Shown here: one piece after another, positions 20,557-33,468 of the stretch
How the letters are laid out: each line of letters starts with the position of its first letter
Position numbering within the stretch: position 1 is the stretch's first letter
From: Sandaracinaceae bacterium
GTDB lineage: Bacteria > Myxococcota_A > Polyangia > Polyangiales > Sandaracinaceae
Reading direction: 5' to 3'
Length of the DNA: 34,228 bases
NCBI GenBank assembly: GCA_019637095.1
Contig: JAHBWG010000091.1
Location: forward strand, 1-34,228
Notes under the pieces: generated by a model
Told to the model about the DNA's origin: nothing
What the model saw: the letters and a program-made list of their open reading frames with translations, nothing else
Database searches by the model: none
Made by a program: the position numbers and the translations under genes

Positions 20557-20572
20557 ACCTCCGCGATCGAGC

Positions 20573-20601
20573 TTGTCCCTCGGGACCCTTGCTCGTATAA
20601 C
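20573..20601 (+). promoter_or_regulatory. Promoter of the alternative complex III / caa3 oxidase operon with inverted repeat
   Basis: TTGTCC (20573-20578) and TATAAC (20596-20601, five of six) are exactly 17 bases apart. The AT-rich -10 box stands out in this DNA. Start predicted near 20608, giving a leader of about 36 bases before actA. A perfect inverted repeat, GTCCCTCGGGAC (20575-20586), overlaps the -35 box and the spacer, where a repressor would block RNA polymerase. The regulator is unknown. Confidence 0.6.
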
Positions 20602-20643
20602 CGCGCCGCCCCGGGCCTCGCCCCGACCCCCAACGAGCGAGAC

Positions 20644-21291
20644 ATGCAGATATTTCCCAAGTCGCTCAACTTCCTGCCGCTCGTCACCGCGCTCGGCGTG
20701 GCGGTCGGTGGAGGGATCGCGACGTTCGTCGTGGTCTACTACTTCTCGCCGCGCTTCCTGTACGTCGGCTACGAGCCCGAGCAGCCGGTCGCCTACAGCC
20801 ACCGCCTGCACGCGGGCCAGCTCGGGATCGACTGCCGCTACTGCCACGCGAACGTCGAGCGCTCCTTCGAGGCGATGGTCCCCCCGACGCAGACGTGCAT
20901 GGGCTGCCACGCGGTCGTGCGCACCGACTCCGCCCGCCTCGCGCCGGTGCGCGAGAGCTGGGAGAGCGGCATGCCCGTCTCGTGGATCCGCGTGCACAAC
21001 GTGCCCGACCACGTGTTCTTCGATCACAGCGTGCACCTCTCCGCCGGCGTGGGCTGCGTCACGTGCCACGGGCGCGTGGATCGGATGGAGGTCGTCTCGA
21101 TCGCCGAGCCGCTCTCGATGGGCTGGTGCTTGGACTGCCACCGCGATCCCGAGCCGCACCTGCGGCCGGTGAGCCGCGTGACGGATATGACTTGGACGCG
21201 TGAGCAAGCGACCGACGCGGAGCGCGCCGAGATGGCGGCGCTCCTCGCGCGGGCCACGCCTCCGGAGAACTGCTCGGGGTGTCACCGATGA
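20644..21291 (+). CDS. actA: Alternative complex III subunit ActA, pentaheme cytochrome c
   Basis: 215 residues. One N-terminal membrane helix (about residues 10-33) anchors a periplasmic domain with five CxxCH heme c sites: CRYCH at 64, CMGCH at 85, CVTCH at 138, CLDCH at 162 and CSGCH at 210. Five hemes are what known ActA proteins carry. In the family, ActA forms the heme wire that, with ActE, carries electrons from ActB towards the terminal oxidase. It is the first gene of the operon; its stop overlaps the start of actB (ATGA). Confidence 0.95.
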   Translation: MQIFPKSLNFLPLVTALGVAVGGGIATFVVVYYFSPRFLYVGYEPEQPVAYSHRLHAGQLGIDCRYCHANVERSFEAMVPPTQTCMGCHAVVRTDSARLAPVRESWESGMPVSWIRVHNVPDHVFFDHSVHLSAGVGCVTCHGRVDRMEVVSIAEPLSMGWCLDCHRDPEPHLRPVSRVTDMTWTREQATDAERAEMAALLARATPPENCSGCHR

Positions 21292-24200
21292 GCAATCCCA
21301 ACGACGAACGCCCGACGATCTGGCGCAGCCTGGCCGAGAAGGTCGACCCGCGGCGCCGCGACCGCCTCGCCGCGGAGGAGACCGGCATCCAGGTCGGCTC
21401 GCTCCTGCCGGAGAAGTCCCTCGTCGACCGCCGCACGTTCCTCTCGATCGCCGGCGCGAGCGCGGCGACGGTCGGGCTGAGCGGCTGTCTGCGGCGGCCC
21501 GAGGAGCAGATCCTCCCGTACACGGTGCAGCCGGAGTACTCGCAGCCGGGCATCCCGCTGCACTTCGCGACCTCGACGAACCACCGGGGGGAGGGCATCG
21601 GGCTGCTCGTGGAGAGCCACGAGGGCCGGCCCACCAAGATCGAGGGCAACCCGTCGCACGCGATGACGGGGGGCAAGACCGACGCGCACTTGCAGGCGCG
21701 CATCCTCGACCTCTACGACGACGAGCGCGCCAGTGATCCGCGCCGCGGCGAGGACGCGGCGACCTGGGCCGAGTTCTACGCGTGGTGGCGCGAGAAGGCC
21801 GCCTCGCTCGGGACCGGCGCGGGCCTGCGCGTGCTGATGCCGCCGACGCCGTCGCCGACGATGGATCGCGTCCGGCGCGCGTTCGCCGAGCGCTTCCCCG
21901 CCGCGCGCGTCCACACGTGGTCGGCGATCCCCGAGGAGTCGGCGCGCCGCGGCACCGCGGTCGCCTTCAACTCGCCGCGCGTACCCGTGTACGACCTCGG
22001 CGGCGACGCGCGCAACGGCCCGCGCGCGAGGGTGATCGCCTCGTTCGACTGCGACTTCCTCGCGGGCGAGCGCGGCTTCCTCCACCACGCGCGCGGCTTC
22101 GCGCGCGGGCGCGACATCCGTGCGCCCGAGCAGCCGATGAACCGGCTCTACGCGCTCGAGGGCACGCTCTCGGTGACCGGCATGAACGCCGATCACCGGC
22201 TGCGCCTCGCGCCCTCGCAGATCGATCGGACCCTGCGCGGCCTCGCGGCGAAGCTCGCGACGCTGCCGGGCGTGGCGATGCCGCCCGCCGTCGGCCGCGC
22301 GGTCGAGGGCGCCTTCGAGGGGCTGCCCGAGGCGCACCGGACCTGGATCGAGAGGATGGCGCGGGACCTCGCGTCGAACACGACGCGCAGCCTCGTCTGC
22401 GTCGGCTGGCGTCAGCCGTTCCACGTCCACGCGCTCGCCGCGGCGATCAACGTCGCGCTCGGCAACTCCGGCGCCACGGTGCACTACTACCCGGAGCCCG
22501 ACTCCGCCGAGCGTCAGGGCCTCGCCGAGCTCGTCGAGGCGATGCGCGGCGGGCTCGACACGCTGGTGATCCTCGGCGGCAACCCCGTCTACGACGCGCC
22601 CGGCGACCTCGACTTCGCGGCCGCCCTCGGCAGCGTCCAGAACAGCGTGCACCTCTCCATGCGCGCGGACGAGACGTCGAGCGCGTGCAGCTGGCACCTG
22701 CCGATGGCGCACGAGCTCGAGAGCTGGGGTGACTACTACGCCATCGACGGCACGTACTCGCTGCAGCAGCCGCTGATCGCGCCGTTGCGCCGCGGCGTCG
22801 CGGCGCAAGAGCTGTTCGCGTTCATCGCGGGCATCCGCGCCTTCCGCGGGTACAACCTCGTGCGCAACACGCTGCGCGAGCGGGTCGGTGAGGTCGGCTT
22901 CGAGCGCCGCTGGCGGCGCAGCCTGCACGCGGGCGTCGTGGATCTGCCGCTCCAGCGGCCGCGCCCGCCCGCCCTGCAGGACTCCGAGGTCGCGACCGCG
23001 CTCGGCACGAACGAGCCGGCGGCGCCGGGTGGCTGGGAGGCGGTCTTCATCCCGTCCTATCAGACCTGGGATGGCTCCGAGGCCCACAACCCGTGGCTCC
23101 TCGAACTGCCCGATCCGGTGACCAAGGTGGTGTGGGGCAACGCGGCGTACATCAGCCCCCACAGCGCGACCGAGCTCGGGCTCCTGAACGACGGCGACTT
23201 CTCTCGGCACGAGTACGAGGGGAGCTTCCCGTCCGGCTGGATGCTCGACATCACCACGGGCGCGGGCACGGTCTCGATCCCGGCGATCGTCGTCCCCGGC
23301 CACGCGGACGAGGTGGTGACCCTGCCGCTCGGCTTCGGCCGGACGGCGGCGGGCCGGCACGGGACCGGGGTCGGCGTGAACGTCCGCGCCGTGCGCGCGA
23401 GCGACTCGCTCGGGTTCGCGACGGGCGCGCAGGTGCGGCCAGGCACCGGGCGCGAGCTGGTCGTCCAGACCCAGGACCACCACTCGATGACGACGATCAC
23501 CGGCGATCGCCCGCTCGCGATCGACGCGACCTACGCGCAGTACCAGGCCACGCCGGACTTCGCGCAGTGGCGCGAGCCGTCGCCGTCGTTGAGCCCGCTC
23601 TGGACGCAGGAGGACTACAACGCGCCGCGGCAACCGGCGCAGGGTGGCCGGACCTACCAGCCGTTCCCCACGCCGCGCAGCGCGCGCCCCGACGCGCCGC
23701 CTCGCTACAAGTGGGGGATGGTCCTCGACCTGACGACCTGCACCGGGTGCAGCGCGTGCATCATCGCGTGCCAGGCGGAGAACAACATCTCCGTCGTCGG
23801 CAAGCGGCAGGTGGCGCTCGGCCGCGAGATGCACTGGATGCGGCTCGACCGCTACTTCGTCGGCGACGACATCAACGAGCCGCGCGTCGCGCTGCAGCCG
23901 GTCGGCTGCCAGCACTGCGAAGAGGCTCCGTGCGAGAACGTCTGCCCCGTCGCGGCGACGGCGCACTCGCCGGAGGGGCTCAACGACATGGCGTACAACC
24001 GGTGCATCGGCACCCGGTACTGCCAGAACAACTGCCCGTACAAGGTCCGCCGCTTCAACTTCCTCGACTGGCACGGGCACATCCCCGAGATCCAGCGGAT
24101 GGTGTTCAACCCGAACGTCTCCATCCGGATCCGCGGCGTGATGGAGAAGTGCTCGTACTGCGTGCAGCGCATCCAGGCGGCGCGCATCGCCGCCCGTCGC

Positions 24201-24473
24201 GAGACGACGGTCGAGGTCGGCGACGACCCGGACAGCGGGCGACTGCGCGGGCGCATCAACGAGCGCCGCATCCGGCCCGACGAGATCCAGTCGGCCTGCT
24301 CGCAGGCCTGCCCGAGCAACGCGATCTACTTCGGTGACTTCAACGACACCGAGTCGGAGGTCCACCGCATGTCGCGGCTGGATCGGCGCTACTCGCTCAT
24401 CGCGTCGGTGGGTACGCAGCCGCGGACGGTCTACCTCGGAAAGATCCGCAACCCGAACCCGGAGATGGTCTGA
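21288..24473 (+). CDS. actB: Alternative complex III subunit ActB, molybdopterin-oxidoreductase-like fused to Fe-S ferredoxin domain
   Basis: 1061 residues. A twin-Arg signal is visible at residues 46-67 ([22 protein letters not shown]), preceded by an unusually long N-region; Cys67 may be a lipidation site. Residues about 70-760 resemble molybdopterin oxidoreductases, which in this family bind no molybdenum cofactor. The C-terminal third (about 800-1030) is a NrfC/DmsB-type ferredoxin with Cys clusters [11 protein letters not shown] (from 818), [24 protein letters not shown] and CSYC plus CSQAC. In characterised complexes these hold three [4Fe-4S] and one [3Fe-4S] cluster, which pass quinol electrons to the hemes. 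The start is ATG 21288, overlapping actA; the stop overlaps actC by one base. Confidence 0.95.
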
Positions 24474-25912
24474 TGGGGTATAAGAAGCCCATCGAGCAGC
24501 TCGACGAGCGGCACCTGGTGTCGGAGGGGACGACCTTCGCCCAGGTGACGGAGATCGTCTCTCGAGTCACCGAGCAGAAGGCCCCGCGCCTGTGGTGGAT
24601 CCTCTTCGGGATCAGCACCTCGGTGACCGGGGTCCTCGGGCTCACCATCGGCTACCTGCTGTGGACCGGCATCGGCGTGTGGGGCAACAACAGCCCGGTC
24701 GCCTGGGCCTGGGACATCACGAACTTCGTGTGGTGGATCGGCATCGGCCACGCGGGGACGCTGATCTCCGCGGTCCTCTACCTGTTCCGGCAGTACTGGC
24801 GCACCGCGATCAACCGCTTCTCCGAGGCGATGACGATCTTCGCGGTCATCTGCGCCTTGATGTTCCCGACGATCCACGCGGGCCGGCCGTGGTTCCTGTA
24901 CTTCTCGCTGCCGATCCCGAACCAGATGAACATGTGGCCCAACTTCAAGAGCCCGCTGCTCTGGGACGTGTTCGCGGTCAGCACCTACTTCACCGTCTCG
25001 CTGCTCTTCTGGTACGTCGGCCTCGTCCCGGACTTCGCGACGCTCCGCGATCGCGCGAAGAACAAGTTCCGCAAGTGGATCTACGGGTTCGTCGCGCTCG
25101 GCTGGCGCGGTAGCAACCGGCACTGGAGCAACTACGAGCGCGCGTACCTCATCCTCGCGGCGCTGAGCACCCCGCTCGTGCTCTCCGTGCACTCGGTCGT
25201 CTCGTTCGACTTCGCGACGTCGGTCGAGCCCGGGTGGCACACCACCATCTTCCCGCCGTACTTCGTCGCCGGCGCCGTCTTCAGCGGCTTCGCGATGGTC
25301 ATGACCCTCCTGATCATCGCGCGCACCGTGTACGGCCTCCACGACCTCGTGCGCATCCGGCACCTCGAGCTGATGAACAAGATCATGCTCACGACGGGGA
25401 GCCTCGTCGGGTACGCGTACGCGATGGAGTTCTTCATCGCGTGGTACTCCGGCAACCCGTACGAGCGGTTCGTGTTCATCAACCGCGCGATGGGCGACTA
25501 CTGGTGGGCGTACTGGTCGATGATCACGTGCAACGTGATCAGCCCGCAGCTCTTCTGGTTCAAGAAGCTGCGGACGAACATCCCCGTGATGTTCATCGTC
25601 TCGATCGTCATCAACGTAGGCATGTGGTTCGAGCGCTTCGTCATCATCGTGACGTCGCTGCACCACGACTACCTGCCGAGCGCGTGGGGCAACTTCAGCC
25701 CGACGATCTTCGACATCCTCACCTACGTCGGCTCGCTCGGCCTCTTCTTCACCGCGTTCCTCTTGTTCCTGCGGTGGCTGCCGATGATCGCCATCGCCGA
25801 GGTCAAGATGGTCATGCCGCAGGCGGACCCGCACCTCGGCCACGGCGACGAGGAGCACGGCGAAGACCACCACGACGACGCGACCGCCGTTCCGGCGATG
25901 GCGGAGGAGTGA
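24473..25912 (+). CDS. actC: Alternative complex III subunit ActC, NrfD-like quinol-binding membrane protein
   Basis: 479 residues, about ten membrane helices. The NrfD-type features include a polar helix near the start ([26 protein letters not shown]), and [26 protein letters not shown] in the second half. ActC is one of two NrfD-type subunits of the complex; the family model places quinol oxidation here, next to the ActB Fe-S clusters. The cytoplasmic C-terminus (about residues 450-479) is rich in His, Asp and Glu ([16 protein letters not shown]). ATG 24473 overlaps the actB stop, so translation is coupled. Confidence 0.95.
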
Positions 25913-25917
25913 CCGCG

Positions 25918-26499
25918 ATGGCTTCCGAATCGCAGAAGAAGGGCGCGCAGAGCCCCGAGACCCGCCCGCTCCTGTTCCTGGCGGAGTACGAGACGGCCGG
26001 CGACGTCTTCCACGCCGCCGAGCACGTGCGCGACGCCGGCTACGAGAAGTGGGACGTCCACACCCCGTTCCCGGTGCACGGGATGGACAAGGCGATGGGC
26101 CTCAAGGACTCCAAGGTCGCCTGGATCGTGCTCGTGATGGGCCTGACGGGCTGCACCACCGCGTTCCTGATGATGTGGTGGATGAACGGCCACGACTACC
26201 CGCTGGTCATCGGCGGCAAGCCCGGCTTCTCGCTCCCGTCGATGATCCCGGTGATGTTCGAGCTGACCGTCCTGCTCTCCGCGTTCGGCGCGGTGTTCGG
26301 GATGCTCGGCATCAACCAGCTGCCCAAGCACTGGCACCCGGTGTTCTTCTCGGATCGCTTCGAGCGCTGCTCGGACGACCGCTTCTTCATCTCGATCGAG
26401 GCGGCCGACCCGAAGTTCGACCTCGAAGAGACCAAGGCGCTGCTCGAGGGCACCCACCCCTCGCACGTCGAGCTCATCTCGGAGGAGGTGGAGCAATGA
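25918..26499 (+). CDS. actD: Alternative complex III subunit ActD (DUF3341)
   Basis: 193 residues. Two membrane helices (about 70-92 and 110-132) follow a short cytoplasmic domain whose LLAEYETAGDVFHAAEHVRDAGY-like start and W-DVHTPFPVHGMDKAMGL segment are the DUF3341 signature. ActD is a structural membrane subunit without cofactors. ATG 25918 has a Shine-Dalgarno GGAGG (25903-25907) inside the end of actC. The stop overlaps the actE start (ATGA). Confidence 0.93.
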   Translation: MASESQKKGAQSPETRPLLFLAEYETAGDVFHAAEHVRDAGYEKWDVHTPFPVHGMDKAMGLKDSKVAWIVLVMGLTGCTTAFLMMWWMNGHDYPLVIGGKPGFSLPSMIPVMFELTVLLSAFGAVFGMLGINQLPKHWHPVFFSDRFERCSDDRFFISIEAADPKFDLEETKALLEGTHPSHVELISEEVEQ

Positions 26500-27080
26500 G
26501 GCGCGCGTTGACCGCGGCGGCCCTCGCGCTCTCGCTCGCCGCCTGCCAGGGGCAGACGTCGACGGAGCCCCCGATCGTGCCGGTCCGCCAGATGCACGAG
26601 CAGCCGCGCTACGACGCGCAGGAGCCGGGCGGCTACTTCCCGGATGGTCGCGCGATGCGGCCGCACGTCGAGCACACCGTCGCGCGCGAGATGGAGGTCG
26701 ATCTCACCATCGACACCGGCCTCGAGGGCCAGGCGCGCTACGTCGACACGATCCCGCCGGACGTCATCGACGGCTTCCGAGGGATGCCCGCGCTGCTCGC
26801 GCGCGGCGAGGACCGGTACGGCATCTACTGCGTGCCGTGCCACGGCGCGCTCGGTGACGGGGCGGGCATGGTGCCGGAGGTGTCCGGTGTCGGCACGATC
26901 CGCCCGCCGACCTTCCACGACGACCGCGTGCGCCGCATGCCCGACGGGCAGGTGTACGCGACCATCCGAAACGGCCTGCGCAACATGCCGGCGTATCGAC
27001 ACAACGTCCCCGTGCGGGACCGCTGGGCGATCGTCGGCTACGTGCGCGCGCTCCAGCTCAGCCAGATGGACGGACGATGA
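26496..27080 (+). CDS. actE: Alternative complex III subunit ActE, monoheme cytochrome c lipoprotein
   Basis: 194 residues. The signal sequence (RRALTAAALALSLAAC) ends in a lipobox with Cys17, so the protein is lipid-anchored on the periplasmic side, as found for ActE in other complexes. One heme c site is at 112-116 (CVPCH), and the axial Met is probably Met164 in LRNMPAY. In the family ActE lies at the exit of the electron path. A very strong Shine-Dalgarno, GGAGGAGG (26481-26488), sits seven bases before the ATG. Start and stop overlap the flanking genes. Confidence 0.95.
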   Translation: MRRALTAAALALSLAACQGQTSTEPPIVPVRQMHEQPRYDAQEPGGYFPDGRAMRPHVEHTVAREMEVDLTIDTGLEGQARYVDTIPPDVIDGFRGMPALLARGEDRYGIYCVPCHGALGDGAGMVPEVSGVGTIRPPTFHDDRVRRMPDGQVYATIRNGLRNMPAYRHNVPVRDRWAIVGYVRALQLSQMDGR

Positions 27081-28498
27081 GCAAGCCGGCGAAGAAAGAG
27101 GGCAAGGCCCCCACCTACCGGATCCCCGCGGACTCGCCGTGGGCCAGCGCCTGGAAACTGGCGGCGGGCCTCGGCGCGGTCGGCGTCGCCGCCTCCGTGG
27201 CGGGGATGTTCATCGACGCGCATCGGTTCGCGTTCAGCTGGCTGTTCGCGTTCATGTTCTTCCTCGCGCTCGGGCTCGGCGGGCTCTTCTTCACCCTCGG
27301 CCAGCACCTCACCGGCGCGGGCTGGGGCGTGCCGCTGCGCCGCACCGCCGAGATGTTGATGAGCGGCCTGCCGGTGTTCCTGGTGCTGTCGGCGCCGATC
27401 TTCATCCACATGCACGAGCTCTACCCGTGGCTCGAGCACCACGGCGCGGAGCACGGCGCGGACCACGGTGGCGGGCACGACGAGGGCCACGGCGGCGCGC
27501 ACGGTGGGCACGACGAGCACGGCCTGCTCGGGATCGCGGCGAGCGCCGCGCGCGCGGACGAGCTCCCGCGCGACCCGTGGGATCAGCGCCCGCACGAGCG
27601 CGCGCCCGAGACGCGCACGCACACGCCCGAGCACGCGATGCACGCGGAGATCATGAGCACGAAGGGGTGGTACCTGAACCAGGGCTTCTTCTTCATCCGC
27701 GCCGGGATCTACTTCATCGCCTGGATCCTCCTCGCGTACTTCTTCTTCACGTGGTCGACGCGCCAGGACAAGGAGAAGGGGCTCGCGCTCACCAAGCGCA
27801 TGGAGACGGCGGCGCCGTTCGCGACGTTCGTCTTCGGCTTCTCGCTCACGTTCGCCGCGTTCGACTGGATGATGGCGCTCGAGCCGTCGTGGTACTCCAC
27901 GATCTACGGCGTCATCTACTTCGCGATCGCAGCGATCATCGCGCACGCCACGATCATCCTCTTGACGCTCGGCATGTCGCGCGCGGGGATCTTCGGCGAC
28001 GCGATCAGCGTCGAGCACTTCCACGACATCGGCAAGCTGCTCCACGGCTTCGTGATCTTCTGGGCGTACGTCAGCGTCTCGCAGTTCCTCCTGATCTGGT
28101 ACGCGGGCATCCCGGAGGAGGCGACCTACTACCACCTGCGCTGGTGGGGCGGCGGGAGCTGGATGAACGTCAGCGTCATCCTCGTCGTCGCGGGCTTCGT
28201 GATCCCGTTCTTCCTCCTGATGTCGCGCAACTTCAAGCGGAACCTCCCGTGGCTCGGCTTCGCCGCGGCGTGGATCCTCGTGATGCAGGTGGTGCAGCTC
28301 TACTGGCTCGTCATGCCCTACGCGGAGCAGACCGGGCTGGTCGAGACGCAGCTGCGGCTGCACTGGCTCGACTTCGCGGCCTTCGTGGGCGTCGGCGGGG
28401 TCTACATGGCGGTCGTGCTCTGGAACATGACGCGCTTCCCCCTCGTGCCGGTCGGCGACCCGCGGCTCTCGCGCGGTCTCCATCACGAGGTCGTGTAG
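27077..28498 (+). CDS. actF: Alternative complex III subunit ActF, second NrfD-like membrane protein
   Basis: 473 residues and about ten membrane helices; the ActC paralogue in the complex. Recognisable family segments are FSWLFAFMFFLALGLGGLFF near the start, GWYLNQGFFFIRAGIYFIAW, and FAAFDWMMALEPSWYSTIYG in the second half. ActC and ActF are proposed to form proton paths; ActF is not thought to bind quinol in the same way. An extramembrane loop (residues 121-149) has nine His in 28 residues and is followed by a polar stretch up to about 190. ATG 27077 overlaps the actE stop. Confidence 0.94.
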   Translation: MSKPAKKEGKAPTYRIPADSPWASAWKLAAGLGAVGVAASVAGMFIDAHRFAFSWLFAFMFFLALGLGGLFFTLGQHLTGAGWGVPLRRTAEMLMSGLPVFLVLSAPIFIHMHELYPWLEHHGAEHGADHGGGHDEGHGGAHGGHDEHGLLGIAASAARADELPRDPWDQRPHERAPETRTHTPEHAMHAEIMSTKGWYLNQGFFFIRAGIYFIAWILLAYFFFTWSTRQDKEKGLALTKRMETAAPFATFVFGFSLTFAAFDWMMALEPSWYSTIYGVIYFAIAAIIAHATIILLTLGMSRAGIFGDAISVEHFHDIGKLLHGFVIFWAYVSVSQFLLIWYAGIPEEATYYHLRWWGGGSWMNVSVILVVAGFVIPFFLLMSRNFKRNLPWLGFAAAWILVMQVVQLYWLVMPYAEQTGLVETQLRLHWLDFAAFVGVGGVYMAVVLWNMTRFPLVPVGDPRLSRGLHHEVV

Positions 28499-28507
28499 GA
28501 GGGATCG

Positions 28508-28978
28508 ATGGCAGCCAAGTGGGACAACACGCCGCCCCAGAACCTCGTCATCCTGGCCTGCGCGGTCGGCTCGGCGCTGCTCTTGTTCGTGCTGAAGTTC
28601 GGCTTCGACGCGTACTACGACGGGATGCGCGCGCGGACCGTCGGCGAGCAGCAGACGCGCTACGACGACCTCGCGCCGCTCCGTGAGCGCGAGGCCGGGT
28701 GGCAGGGCCAGCTCGAGCGGGGCAACCGCATGCCGCTGCGCGCGGCCATGAGCCAGCTCGGCGCGCAGGGCAGGGCGGCGGACCCGGCGATCAGCCCGGA
28801 GCGCCCCGCGCAGATGAACACCGGCCCGCTCGAGGGCTGGACGCAGCTCCCGCAGGAGGTCCCGCAGCCCGAGCCGGTGCGCGCGGAGCCGACCGGCGCC
28901 CGCGGCCTCTCCCCCGAGGCGCTGCAGCAACTGCAAGAGGCCTTGCGCCAGCTCGTCCCCTCCGGAGGCGCCGAGTAG
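28508..28978 (+). CDS. Small single-pass membrane protein in the actG position
   Basis: 156 residues. A perfect Shine-Dalgarno AGGAGG (28497-28502) overlaps the actF stop and lies five bases before ATG 28508, so this is a real gene. One membrane helix (about residues 12-31, NLVILACAVGSALLLFVLKFG) is followed by a charged and Pro/Gln-rich tail (EQQTRYDDLAPLRERE; PQEVPQPEPVRAEP) and a short helix at the end (LSPEALQQLQEALRQL). I cannot match it to a named family. Position between actF and the oxidase genes suggests an accessory subunit of the complex (a seventh subunit, ActG, is known in some complexes) or an assembly factor. Confidence 0.7.
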   Translation: MAAKWDNTPPQNLVILACAVGSALLLFVLKFGFDAYYDGMRARTVGEQQTRYDDLAPLREREAGWQGQLERGNRMPLRAAMSQLGAQGRAADPAISPERPAQMNTGPLEGWTQLPQEVPQPEPVRAEPTGARGLSPEALQQLQEALRQLVPSGGAE

Positions 28979-28983
28979 CGCTC

Positions 28984-29895
28984 ATGCGCGCGCTCCTCGC
29001 CACCGTCGGTCCCGCGCTCGTCGCCCTGCTCGCCACGGCGCCCGCGCGCCCGTGCGCCGCGCACGACGCGCCCGCGTTGGTCCCGCCCGGGCTCGACGCG
29101 GTGACCGTGGAGGAGCGCCTCGGCGAGCGCGTCCCCGCCGACCTCGCGTTCCGCGACCACACCGGCCGGCGCGTGCTCCTGTCCGAGGTGCTGCCCGGCG
29201 ATCGCCCCGTGCTCTTGAACCTCGTCTACCACGACTGCACGACGTTCTGCTCCCTCGTCCTGGACGGCGTCGCCGCCTCGCTCAACCAGCAGGGCTGGAC
29301 CGCGGGCGTCGAGTTCGACGTCGTGACGGTGAGCATCGATCCGCGCGACACGCCCGAGGTCGCGGCGCGCGCCCGGGCGCGGACCCTCGCCCACTACGCG
29401 CGGGACGCGGCCCGCGAGGGCTGGCACTTCCTCGTCGCGGAGCGCTCGCTCGACGAGCGGGAGAACCTCCTCGCCTACGGCATCTACCCCGAGGCGCAGC
29501 GGCTCGCGGCGGCCGTGGGCTTCGGCTACGAGTGGATGCCGCGCACGGGGCAGTACGCGCACCCGGGCGTCATCATGCTGCTGACGCCGGACGGCCGCGT
29601 CGCGCGCTACCTCTACGGCCTCGAGTACCGGGCGCAGGACGTGCGCCTGGGCCTGCTCGAGGCCAGCGAGGGTCGAAGCGTCTCGACCCTCGAGCACGTG
29701 CTCCTCTACTGCTACGCGTACAACGCGAACGCGCAGGGCTACACGCTCGTCGCGTGGAACGTGATGCGCGCGGGCGGGGGGGTGACCGCGCTCGCCCTGT
29801 TCGCGTTCTTGGGATTCCTCTTCTGGCGGGACAAGAAGCGCCAGGAGGCAGTACCGGCCTCTCCCGGGGGGCCCCTCGTCAGGATTGATCGATGA
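28984..29895 (+). CDS. SCO1/SenC-type copper chaperone for cytochrome oxidase
   Basis: 303 residues. A signal peptide (about 1-26) is followed by a thioredoxin-fold domain with the SCO copper ligands Cys85 and Cys89 (DCTTFCSLV, a CxxxC motif) and His193 in GQYAHPGVIML. The segment FDVVTVSIDPRDTPEVA is also typical. A C-terminal membrane helix (about 262-282) and a basic cytoplasmic tail anchor it. SCO proteins load or reduce the CuA site of subunit II. Its stop overlaps the start of coxB (ATGA), the very protein it would mature. ATG 28984 is chosen for the signal peptide. Confidence 0.9.
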   Translation: MRALLATVGPALVALLATAPARPCAAHDAPALVPPGLDAVTVEERLGERVPADLAFRDHTGRRVLLSEVLPGDRPVLLNLVYHDCTTFCSLVLDGVAASLNQQGWTAGVEFDVVTVSIDPRDTPEVAARARARTLAHYARDAAREGWHFLVAERSLDERENLLAYGIYPEAQRLAAAVGFGYEWMPRTGQYAHPGVIMLLTPDGRVARYLYGLEYRAQDVRLGLLEASEGRSVSTLEHVLLYCYAYNANAQGYTLVAWNVMRAGGGVTALALFAFLGFLFWRDKKRQEAVPASPGGPLVRIDR

Positions 29896-30977
29896 ACGAC
29901 CAGACCGGTTACGACGCGACGATCCAGTTGCCGGAGGGCGCATCCACGTTGGCACCGCACGTGGACTCGCTCTACTACGACATCTACTGGATCAGCGTCG
30001 CCTTCTTCGTGGCGATCGTGGGCTGCATGGTGTGGTTCGCGTACCGCTTCCGGCGCAAGAAGGGCGTGAAGTCCAAGCCGCCGGGGCACCACACCGCCCT
30101 CGAGCTCTTCTGGACCTTCTCGCCGCTGCTCCTGCTCGGCTACATGTTCCACCAGGGCTTCGACGGCTTCATGCGCATGTCGATCGCCCCGGAGAACGCG
30201 CTCAACATCCGCGCGGAGGCGCGGCAGTGGAGCTGGACGTTCATCCACCCGAGCGGCCGCACCGAGGGTGAGATGACGGTGCCGATCCACCGGCCGGTGC
30301 GCGTCATCATGAGCTCGCACCCGCGCGGCGCGAGCAGCCCCGCGGTGCTCCACTCGTTCTTCGTGCCGGCGCTGCGGGTCAAGCGCGACATCGTGCCGGG
30401 GATGTACACCTCGCTCTGGTTCGAGGCGACGCGCCTCGGGACCTACGACATCTACTGCGCCGAGTACTGCGGCCTCGACCCCATCCGGGGCGAGCTCACC
30501 GACGCGCAGCTCCACGCCAACGGGCGCCCGCTCCCGTCCTCCGGCCACTCGGGGATGCTCAGCCGCCTCCACGTCGTGAGCGCCGAGGAGTGGGTGGAGT
30601 TCGATCGGGTCGGGATCCCGGCGCGCTTCAACGGCGACCACGTCGCCTGGGGCGAGGAGATCTTCGGCCAGCACTGCACCGCCTGCCACGTGATCGAGGC
30701 CGGCCAGCCGGCGACCGTGGGCCCGAACCTCGCCAACGTCGTCGGCTACGACCAGCCGCTCGCGGGCGGCGGCAGCCACATGGCGGATCTCGACTACATG
30801 CGCGAGTCGATCCGCGAGCCGGGCGCGGCCATCGTGGCGGGCTTCGAGAGCGCGGCCATGCCGTCGTTCTCTTCGCTCCCCGAGGCCAACATCGACGCGC
30901 TCATCCAGTACCTCGCCTCGCGCAGCGACCGCGGCGCCGAGGTGATCGCTCAGCTCGAGGCCTCGCGACAGGAGTAG
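29892..30977 (+). CDS. coxB: Cytochrome c oxidase subunit II with fused cytochrome c domain (caa3 type)
   Basis: 361 residues. Two membrane helices (about 32-52 and 72-92) precede the CuA cupredoxin domain and a C-terminal cytochrome c domain with CTACH at 262-266 and a probable Met ligand in AAMPSF. CuA ligands: His154 ([11 protein letters not shown]), Cys189 and Cys193 (CAEYC), His219 and Met222 (GHSGM). The usual spacing from second Cys to His is four; here it is 26, an insertion of about 22 residues. The heme c domain would accept electrons from alternative complex III and pass them to CuA. ATG 29892 overlaps the SCO stop. Confidence 0.93.
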
Positions 30978-30981
30978 CGCC

Positions 30982-32763
<1,782 letters not shown>

Positions 32764-32766
32764 CCC

Positions 32767-33468
32767 ATGGCCAGCTCGCACGATCCGTCCCGCGCCAAGT
32801 GGGGCTCGTGGCTCCAGCACCACTTCGAGGAGCCCGTCCAGCAGTTCGAGGCGGCCAAGCTCGGGATGTGGCTCTTCCTCGCGCAGGAGGTGCTCTTCTT
32901 CTCGGGCCTCTTCGTCGCCTACGGCGTGTACCGCGTCGCGTACCCCGAGGCGTTCGCGGCGGGCTCCGCGCAGCTCGACTGGAAGATCGGGTTCTTCAAC
33001 ACCTGCGTCCTGCTGTTCAGCAGCTTCACCGCCGCGATGGCGGTGCGCGCGGCGCAGCTCGGGCGGCGGCAGGAGACGTCGATCCACCTCGCGATCACGA
33101 TCGTCTGCGCCTTCGTCTTCCTCGGCGTGAAGTACGTCGAGTACAGCGCGAAGTTCGAGCACGGGCTCCTGCCCGGGAACCACTTCGCGCCGGACATGGC
33201 CCACGTCCACCCCTGGCTCGAGGGGGCGGCGGCGGTGACGGAGCTCCCGGTCAAGACGCACGTCTTCTTCGGGATCTACTTCTGCCTCACCGGCCTGCAC
33301 GGCATTCACGTCGCCATCGGCATCGGGGTGCTCGCGTGGGTGCTCATCCGCAACGTGCGTGGCGAGTTCTCCAAGGACTACTGGACGCCCGTGGACCTGG
33401 TCGCCCTCTACTGGCACTTGGTCGACCTCGTCTGGATCTACCTCTTCCCGCTCCTCTACCTCATCTAG
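32767..33468 (+). CDS. coxC: Cytochrome c oxidase subunit III
   Basis: 233 residues with about five membrane helices, typical of the shorter subunit III. Motifs: KLGMWLFLAQEVLFFSGLF (first helix, with the conserved Glu), FFGIYFCLTGLHGIHVAIG (the HG.HV signature) and the last helix YWHLVDLVWIYLFPLLYLI. Subunit III has no redox centre and stabilises proton uptake by subunit I. GGAGGAG directly before the stop of coxA acts as ribosome site. Confidence 0.95.
   Translation: MASSHDPSRAKWGSWLQHHFEEPVQQFEAAKLGMWLFLAQEVLFFSGLFVAYGVYRVAYPEAFAAGSAQLDWKIGFFNTCVLLFSSFTAAMAVRAAQLGRRQETSIHLAITIVCAFVFLGVKYVEYSAKFEHGLLPGNHFAPDMAHVHPWLEGAAAVTELPVKTHVFFGIYFCLTGLHGIHVAIGIGVLAWVLIRNVRGEFSKDYWTPVDLVALYWHLVDLVWIYLFPLLYLI

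Follow-up and report, generated by a model that had tools for sequence, protein, structure and literature searches.

Subunit II of the caa3 oxidase of Thermus thermophilus (subunit II/IIc, PDB 2YEV chain B) consists of two transmembrane helices, a CuA cupredoxin domain and a fused cytochrome c domain, and the spacing from the Cys ligands to the His and Met ligands of its CuA site is short. In Rhodothermus marinus, a caa3 oxidase forms a supercomplex with alternative complex III (ACIII), the genes of which are frequently located 5' of the oxidase genes; a 20 Å map places the ActE subunit beside subunit IIc of the oxidase, a position compatible with direct electron transfer (PMC5928083). The accessible text of that report, with which the present locus is compared by description rather than by CoxB sequence, mentions no change in the CuA loop.

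Teaching and protein engineering generally treat the CuA loop as a short turn of constant length, and studies relating loop length to redox behavior have relied on artificial chimeras. Ligand-loop length has been varied in the CuA scaffold of T. thermophilus ba3 oxidase, which has the same fold as the CuA domain of CoxB; these laboratory constructs carry mononuclear (type 1) copper sites with a replaced ligand loop, in one case 15 residues long, and longer loops raised solvent exposure and reorganization energy (PMC7480511). A search of the open-access literature, which leaves most subscription papers outside and does not prove absence, found no description of CuA loops that are naturally lengthened, nor of an extended CuA loop in myxobacteria; the original prediction had likewise known of no such loop. 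Here, a natural case is described from a 34,228-nucleotide stretch of DNA of a Sandaracinaceae bacterium (JAHBWG010000091.1, positions 1–34,228), referred to below as the window.

The oxidase operon and its CoxB protein

The window genes given with coordinates below are located on the forward strand. The ACIII genes (20557..28978) encode multiheme ActA, iron-sulfur protein ActB, NrfD-like ActC, ActD, monoheme cytochrome c ActE, a membrane protein at the ActF position and a small ORF, in an order kept in relatives. They were identified with Pfam, except for the last two genes, which have no Pfam match, ActF being named by its position. The gene of a SCO1/SenC-like copper chaperone (28972..29895, start codon approximate; Pfam SCO1-SenC), the position of which is also kept in relatives, lies directly 5' of coxB (29892..30977). 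It is followed by coxA and coxC, encoding subunits I and III (30982..33468; Pfam COX1 and COX3), and a COX4_pro gene (Pfam). CoxA contains a YSHPAVY motif, which we take to denote an A2-type oxidase. The position of the act genes directly upstream of the cox genes identifies an ACIII-linked oxidase, and the Pfam assignments bear out the operon type originally proposed.

CoxB comprises 361 amino acids. Above the Pfam cut-off it contains the periplasmic COX2 domain (PF00116, aligned up to residue 195), COX2_TM (PF02790), corresponding to two transmembrane helices, and a Cytochrom_C domain at residues 252–343 with the heme motif CTACH (CxxCH). The combination of COX2 transmembrane and periplasmic domains with a C-terminal cytochrome c defines a caa3-type subunit II (IIc). 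The best PDB sequence match is 2yev_B (E 4e-29), with the same domain order and CuA ligands.

The first half of the CuA ligand motif, C189-A-E191-Y-C193-G194 (30456..30473), and the second half, H219-S-G-M222 (30546..30557), are separated by an extended loop formed by residues 195–218 (30474..30545). Residues C189 (codon 30456–30458), C193, G194, H219 (30546–30548) and M222 (30555–30557) are invariant in the CoxB alignment, as is H154 (30351..30353) in the motif LHSFFVP, which, from established knowledge of the subunit II family, we take to be the CuA ligand outside the loop. The full ligand set, H154, C189, E191 (carbonyl), C193, H219 and M222, is therefore present. Between G194 and H219 there are 24 residues, against the usual two, which makes 22 residues more than in the canonical form, as a comparison with 69 other CoxB sequences showed. 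H219 and M222 follow C193 by 26 and 29 residues instead of the canonical 4 and 7; expressed in terms of the canonical pattern C-x3-C-x3-H-x2-M, 25 residues rather than three lie between C193 and H219. Since 57 of 70 related proteins deviate in the same way, this spacing was treated as typical of CuA subunit II and not as defining it, and, judged by its domains and ligands, the assignment of the window CoxB to the CuA subunit II family holds in spite of the spacing. The HMMER match to 2YEV is interrupted exactly at the 22 extra residues and then continues from where it left off in 2YEV: residues 196 and 218 of CoxB both align to residue 204 of 2YEV.

The inserted stretch L195–S217 (30474–30542) keeps the reading frame, and every third codon position in it is G or C; it is hydrophilic, with one His (H208). 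Its codon adaptation (0.78) is close to that of the remaining CoxB (0.84), while the other two frames reach 0.43 and 0.34; such native codon usage indicates a coding segment without a frameshift scar. In its reading of the gene, the original prediction was accurate: the 26- and 29-residue distances, the retention of all CuA ligands, the intact frame and the polar character of a segment with a His are all borne out. A second small expansion of about 7–9 residues, SHPRGASSP (30318..30344), is located directly before H154 and is shared with a relative that has a canonical ligand loop (L033). Two loops of the CuA domain in the window are thus expanded. Internal duplication of a 10-residue segment as the origin of the insert was rejected, as the insert resembles the DNA preceding H154 only weakly, no better than shuffled codons do.

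Structure models were computed with AlphaFold2 from alignments of six sequences, built from the window and related loci only and hence shallow. The periplasmic domain was modeled as a cupredoxin fold (pLDDT 71.9, residues 193–220 below 50), while the full-length model was poor (pLDDT 66.5, residues 192–221 below 50). Comparison of the domain model with subunit II structures (Foldseek, VIA-align) gave a Z score of 12.3 for 4w9z, with 110 residues aligned at 2.5 Å, about 11 for the bovine and Paracoccus oxidases and 9.8 for 2yev_B. The strands leading into C189 and out of M222 were modeled with confidence, which indicates that the cupredoxin domain holds the loop at both ends. The suggestion that the segment forms a loop or small lobe over the CuA site is geometrically plausible, but its shape gains no support from models in which pLDDT falls below 50 in this region.

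Distribution and history of the extended loop

Seventy distinct CoxB sequences were gathered, mainly from genomes of the order to which the window belongs. Extra residues occur at the same point, between C-G and H-x2-M, in 57 of them and range in number from 7 to 28, whereas 13 sequences are canonical. The insertion that the original prediction advised looking for in related myxobacteria is therefore found there, and the loop is not peculiar to the window protein, being longer still in some relatives. The extra lengths (with numbers of sequences) are 7 (3), 8 (13), 9 (1), 11 (2), 12 (8), 15 (11), 16 (7), 17 (1), 19 (2), 22 (the window), 23 (5), 27 (1) and 28 (2). They cluster, together with the canonical form, at 0, 7–8, 11–12, 15–16, 19, 22–23 and 27–28, that is, in steps of about four residues, for which growth of a hairpin or common descent may be responsible. 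Every extended CoxB keeps H-x2-M and all the normal loop ligands. Loop sequences show little similarity between families, and no motif is common across them; an extra His occurs in some other long loops and is absent from most extended ones. Unlike the engineered chimeras, the loops of Polyangiales represent a natural motif in which all ligands are kept and up to 28 residues are gained between them. With homologous sites that share their ligands and differ greatly in loop length, the effect of loop length on redox behavior could be tested in evolved proteins.

Pattern scans with non-overlapping sets revealed an extended CoxB loop in 51 of 183 genomes of the order, presumably Polyangiales, in which NCBI places the Sandaracinaceae, the family of the close relatives L033 and L034. 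The loops have 7–12 extra residues in 24 genomes (gap 13–43), are longer in 19, including the window (gap 44–74), and have 23–28 extra residues in eight (gap 75–105). In the last scan the pattern was looser and its matches mostly due to chance, so that only genomes with genuine GAR-TAY CoxB matches were counted (G032, G037, G045, G052, G268, G310, G311, and G312). In an even sample of the phylum (188 genomes), all matches with gaps of 13–43 and 44–74 fell inside the order, and none of the 156 genomes outside it matched; the count applies to loops adjoining C-x-E-Y-C-G, the form required by most scans, in which the second Cys must follow a Tyr, and outside the order to loops of up to 22 extra residues. 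Among 199 genomes of Acidobacteriota, the pattern occurred in 24; the listing comprised 28 sites, of which 20 were checked, and none of these encodes CoxB at the match, so that the matches are read as chance. The scans thus covered the order, an even sample of its phylum and Acidobacteriota.

The main phylogenetic tree was built from 65 CoxB sequences after removal of the extra residues. Five changes between canonical and extended forms are needed on this tree, five are forced by supported branches, and bootstrap trees give five across the 5–95% range; exact loop length requires 18 changes. The window CoxB groups with the canonical L004 (support 100/99) and next with the canonical L044 (99/94). 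For its lineage, loss followed by regain and retention combined with two losses are equally short histories. An earlier tree, rooted on paralogs, placed the window clade at the base, suggesting a gain, which the better 65-sequence tree did not uphold. The window loop begins with Gly-Leu-Asp, while all other extended loops begin with Gly-Ala or Gly-Gly, a difference in sequence that leans weakly toward a separate gain. Overall, extension and resizing of the loop have occurred several times in Polyangiales, as probably has its loss.

Among members of one genus, both the length and the sequence of the loop are conserved. For same-genus pairs of the same loop length, pS was 0.43, pN 0.15 and pN/pS 0.34, corresponding to dN/dS of ~0.26; the flanks gave 0.32 and 0.38, values that are upper bounds, as three pairs are misaligned upstream by another insertion. 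The loops of the relatives are thus under purifying selection, a conclusion that applies to them and not directly to the window loop, which has no close homolog.

The order ActA–F, SCO, CoxB, CoxA, CoxC is conserved around coxB in relatives at any loop length. Canonical loops occur in operons of the same layout in L061 and L062 (family f1), L048 and L058 (f7), and L053, L054 and L056 (f12), indicating that an oxidase can be coupled to complex III without an extended loop. Linkage to complex III as the cause of the loop was rejected on these grounds, and the tie between the two drawn by the original prediction is not supported as such.

Possible roles of the lengthened loop

It seems somewhat probable that the CuA subunit II encoded in the window is an ordinary dinuclear one, belonging to a caa3-type oxidase coupled to complex III, and that its lengthened ligand turn tunes fit and exposure for the electron donor of its lineage. 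On the best reading of the data, the site is a working CuA site with the ligand loop bulging beside the electron-entry surface; CuA assembly, the location of the loop and a part for it in docking or in tuning redox properties are what we infer. In such a protein, the turn leading from the second Cys to the His and Met ligands would be lengthened while the two halves of the ligand set stay on neighboring cupredoxin strands, and the 22 extra residues would protrude as a flexible loop where electrons enter. CuA would receive electrons from tethered or supercomplex-bound hemes, those of the fused cytochrome c domain and ActE, and not only from a free small cytochrome. With donors held in this way, the entry surface could vary, and extension, resizing or loss of the loop would match the surroundings of CuA, in fit and in exposure to solvent, to the donor of each lineage. 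Since longer loops raise exposure and reorganization energy in the chimeras, long natural loops might carry a cost unless packed against a partner, as would be expected of a docking element; this is an argument and not a result. An analogy is provided by PsaC of photosystem I, in which an extended loop between metal-ligand motifs may help to dock a partner protein (PMC6616624), PsaC being, unlike CoxB, an iron-sulfur protein of an unrelated family. No co-adaptation between the loop and the linker to the heme domain was seen in the subset of CoxB sequences compared, the Spearman coefficient of their lengths being 0.10.

More tentatively, Polyangiales as a whole may represent a natural CuA series with 0–28 extra residues, in which the loop would serve as a lineage-specific docking or redox-tuning element, paired in some families with a Cys-rich insert before the first CuA cysteine. 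Such a series would mark the electron-entry surface of these oxidases as unusually variable, which bears on the passage of electrons from ACIII.

Rather unlikely, in our estimation, is that the loop marks a tolerated indel hotspot, a solvent-facing turn free to change in length, the extra residues of which have no role beyond folding away. The span of lengths from 0 to 28 with little similarity between families, the roughly 18 length changes on the tree, the coexistence of canonical and extended forms in one operon layout and the low confidence with which the loop is modeled would all agree with such a turn. However, conservation within genera and a dN/dS of ~0.26, not near 1, argue against free drift, and a neutral hotspot should also appear more widely than is observed, given that the patterns picked up no such loop in the 156 genomes sampled from the rest of the phylum.

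The CuA ligand loop flanks the Cys pair that a copper chaperone must reach, and the SCO1/SenC gene directly upstream of coxB in the window and its relatives could point to the loop as a recognition handle for an SCO1-like chaperone during CuA assembly. This role is improbable, because the same SCO gene adjoins coxB with canonical loops too and the loops have no motif common across families. Still less credence is due to changed chemistry, for example a single-copper or otherwise altered site with H208 replacing a normal ligand: H208 does lie in the inserted segment and has counterparts in some other long loops, but most extended loops lack an extra His, the normal ligands including H-x2-M are retained in every extended form, and the downstream oxidase genes are intact. 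Finally, an assembly, sequencing or frameshift artefact, for which it could be said that the nearest relatives L004 and L033 (64–65% identical overall to the window CoxB) lack the insertion, is rejected for the phenomenon as a whole by in-frame native codon usage with no stop codon and by insertions at the same position in many independent genomes.

Other subunit II genes and inserts

A second subunit II gene is present in the genome of the window (L002, G000:C143:172547-173113); its CuA loop is canonical (CAEMCGIGHGLM), and it lacks a fused cytochrome c. At five other loci (L040, L046, L049, L055, and L060), coxB stands alone, the several kb around it being free of coxA, coxC and act genes; it encodes a complete CuA motif, an extended loop and a cytochrome c domain.

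CoxB proteins of families f4 and f2 carry a second insert directly before the first CuA cysteine. It is rich in Cys, with four or eight of these residues (for example, ECEVDADCPEAHQCGRNGTC), and is likely to be a disulfide-bonded mini-domain beside the CuA site. This insert was found at L034:7480-7590 and at L035, L036, L040, L043, L045, L051, L052, L055, L060, L104, and L151. Several genera of family f1 have a Cys-free insert of about 17–18 residues at the same place.
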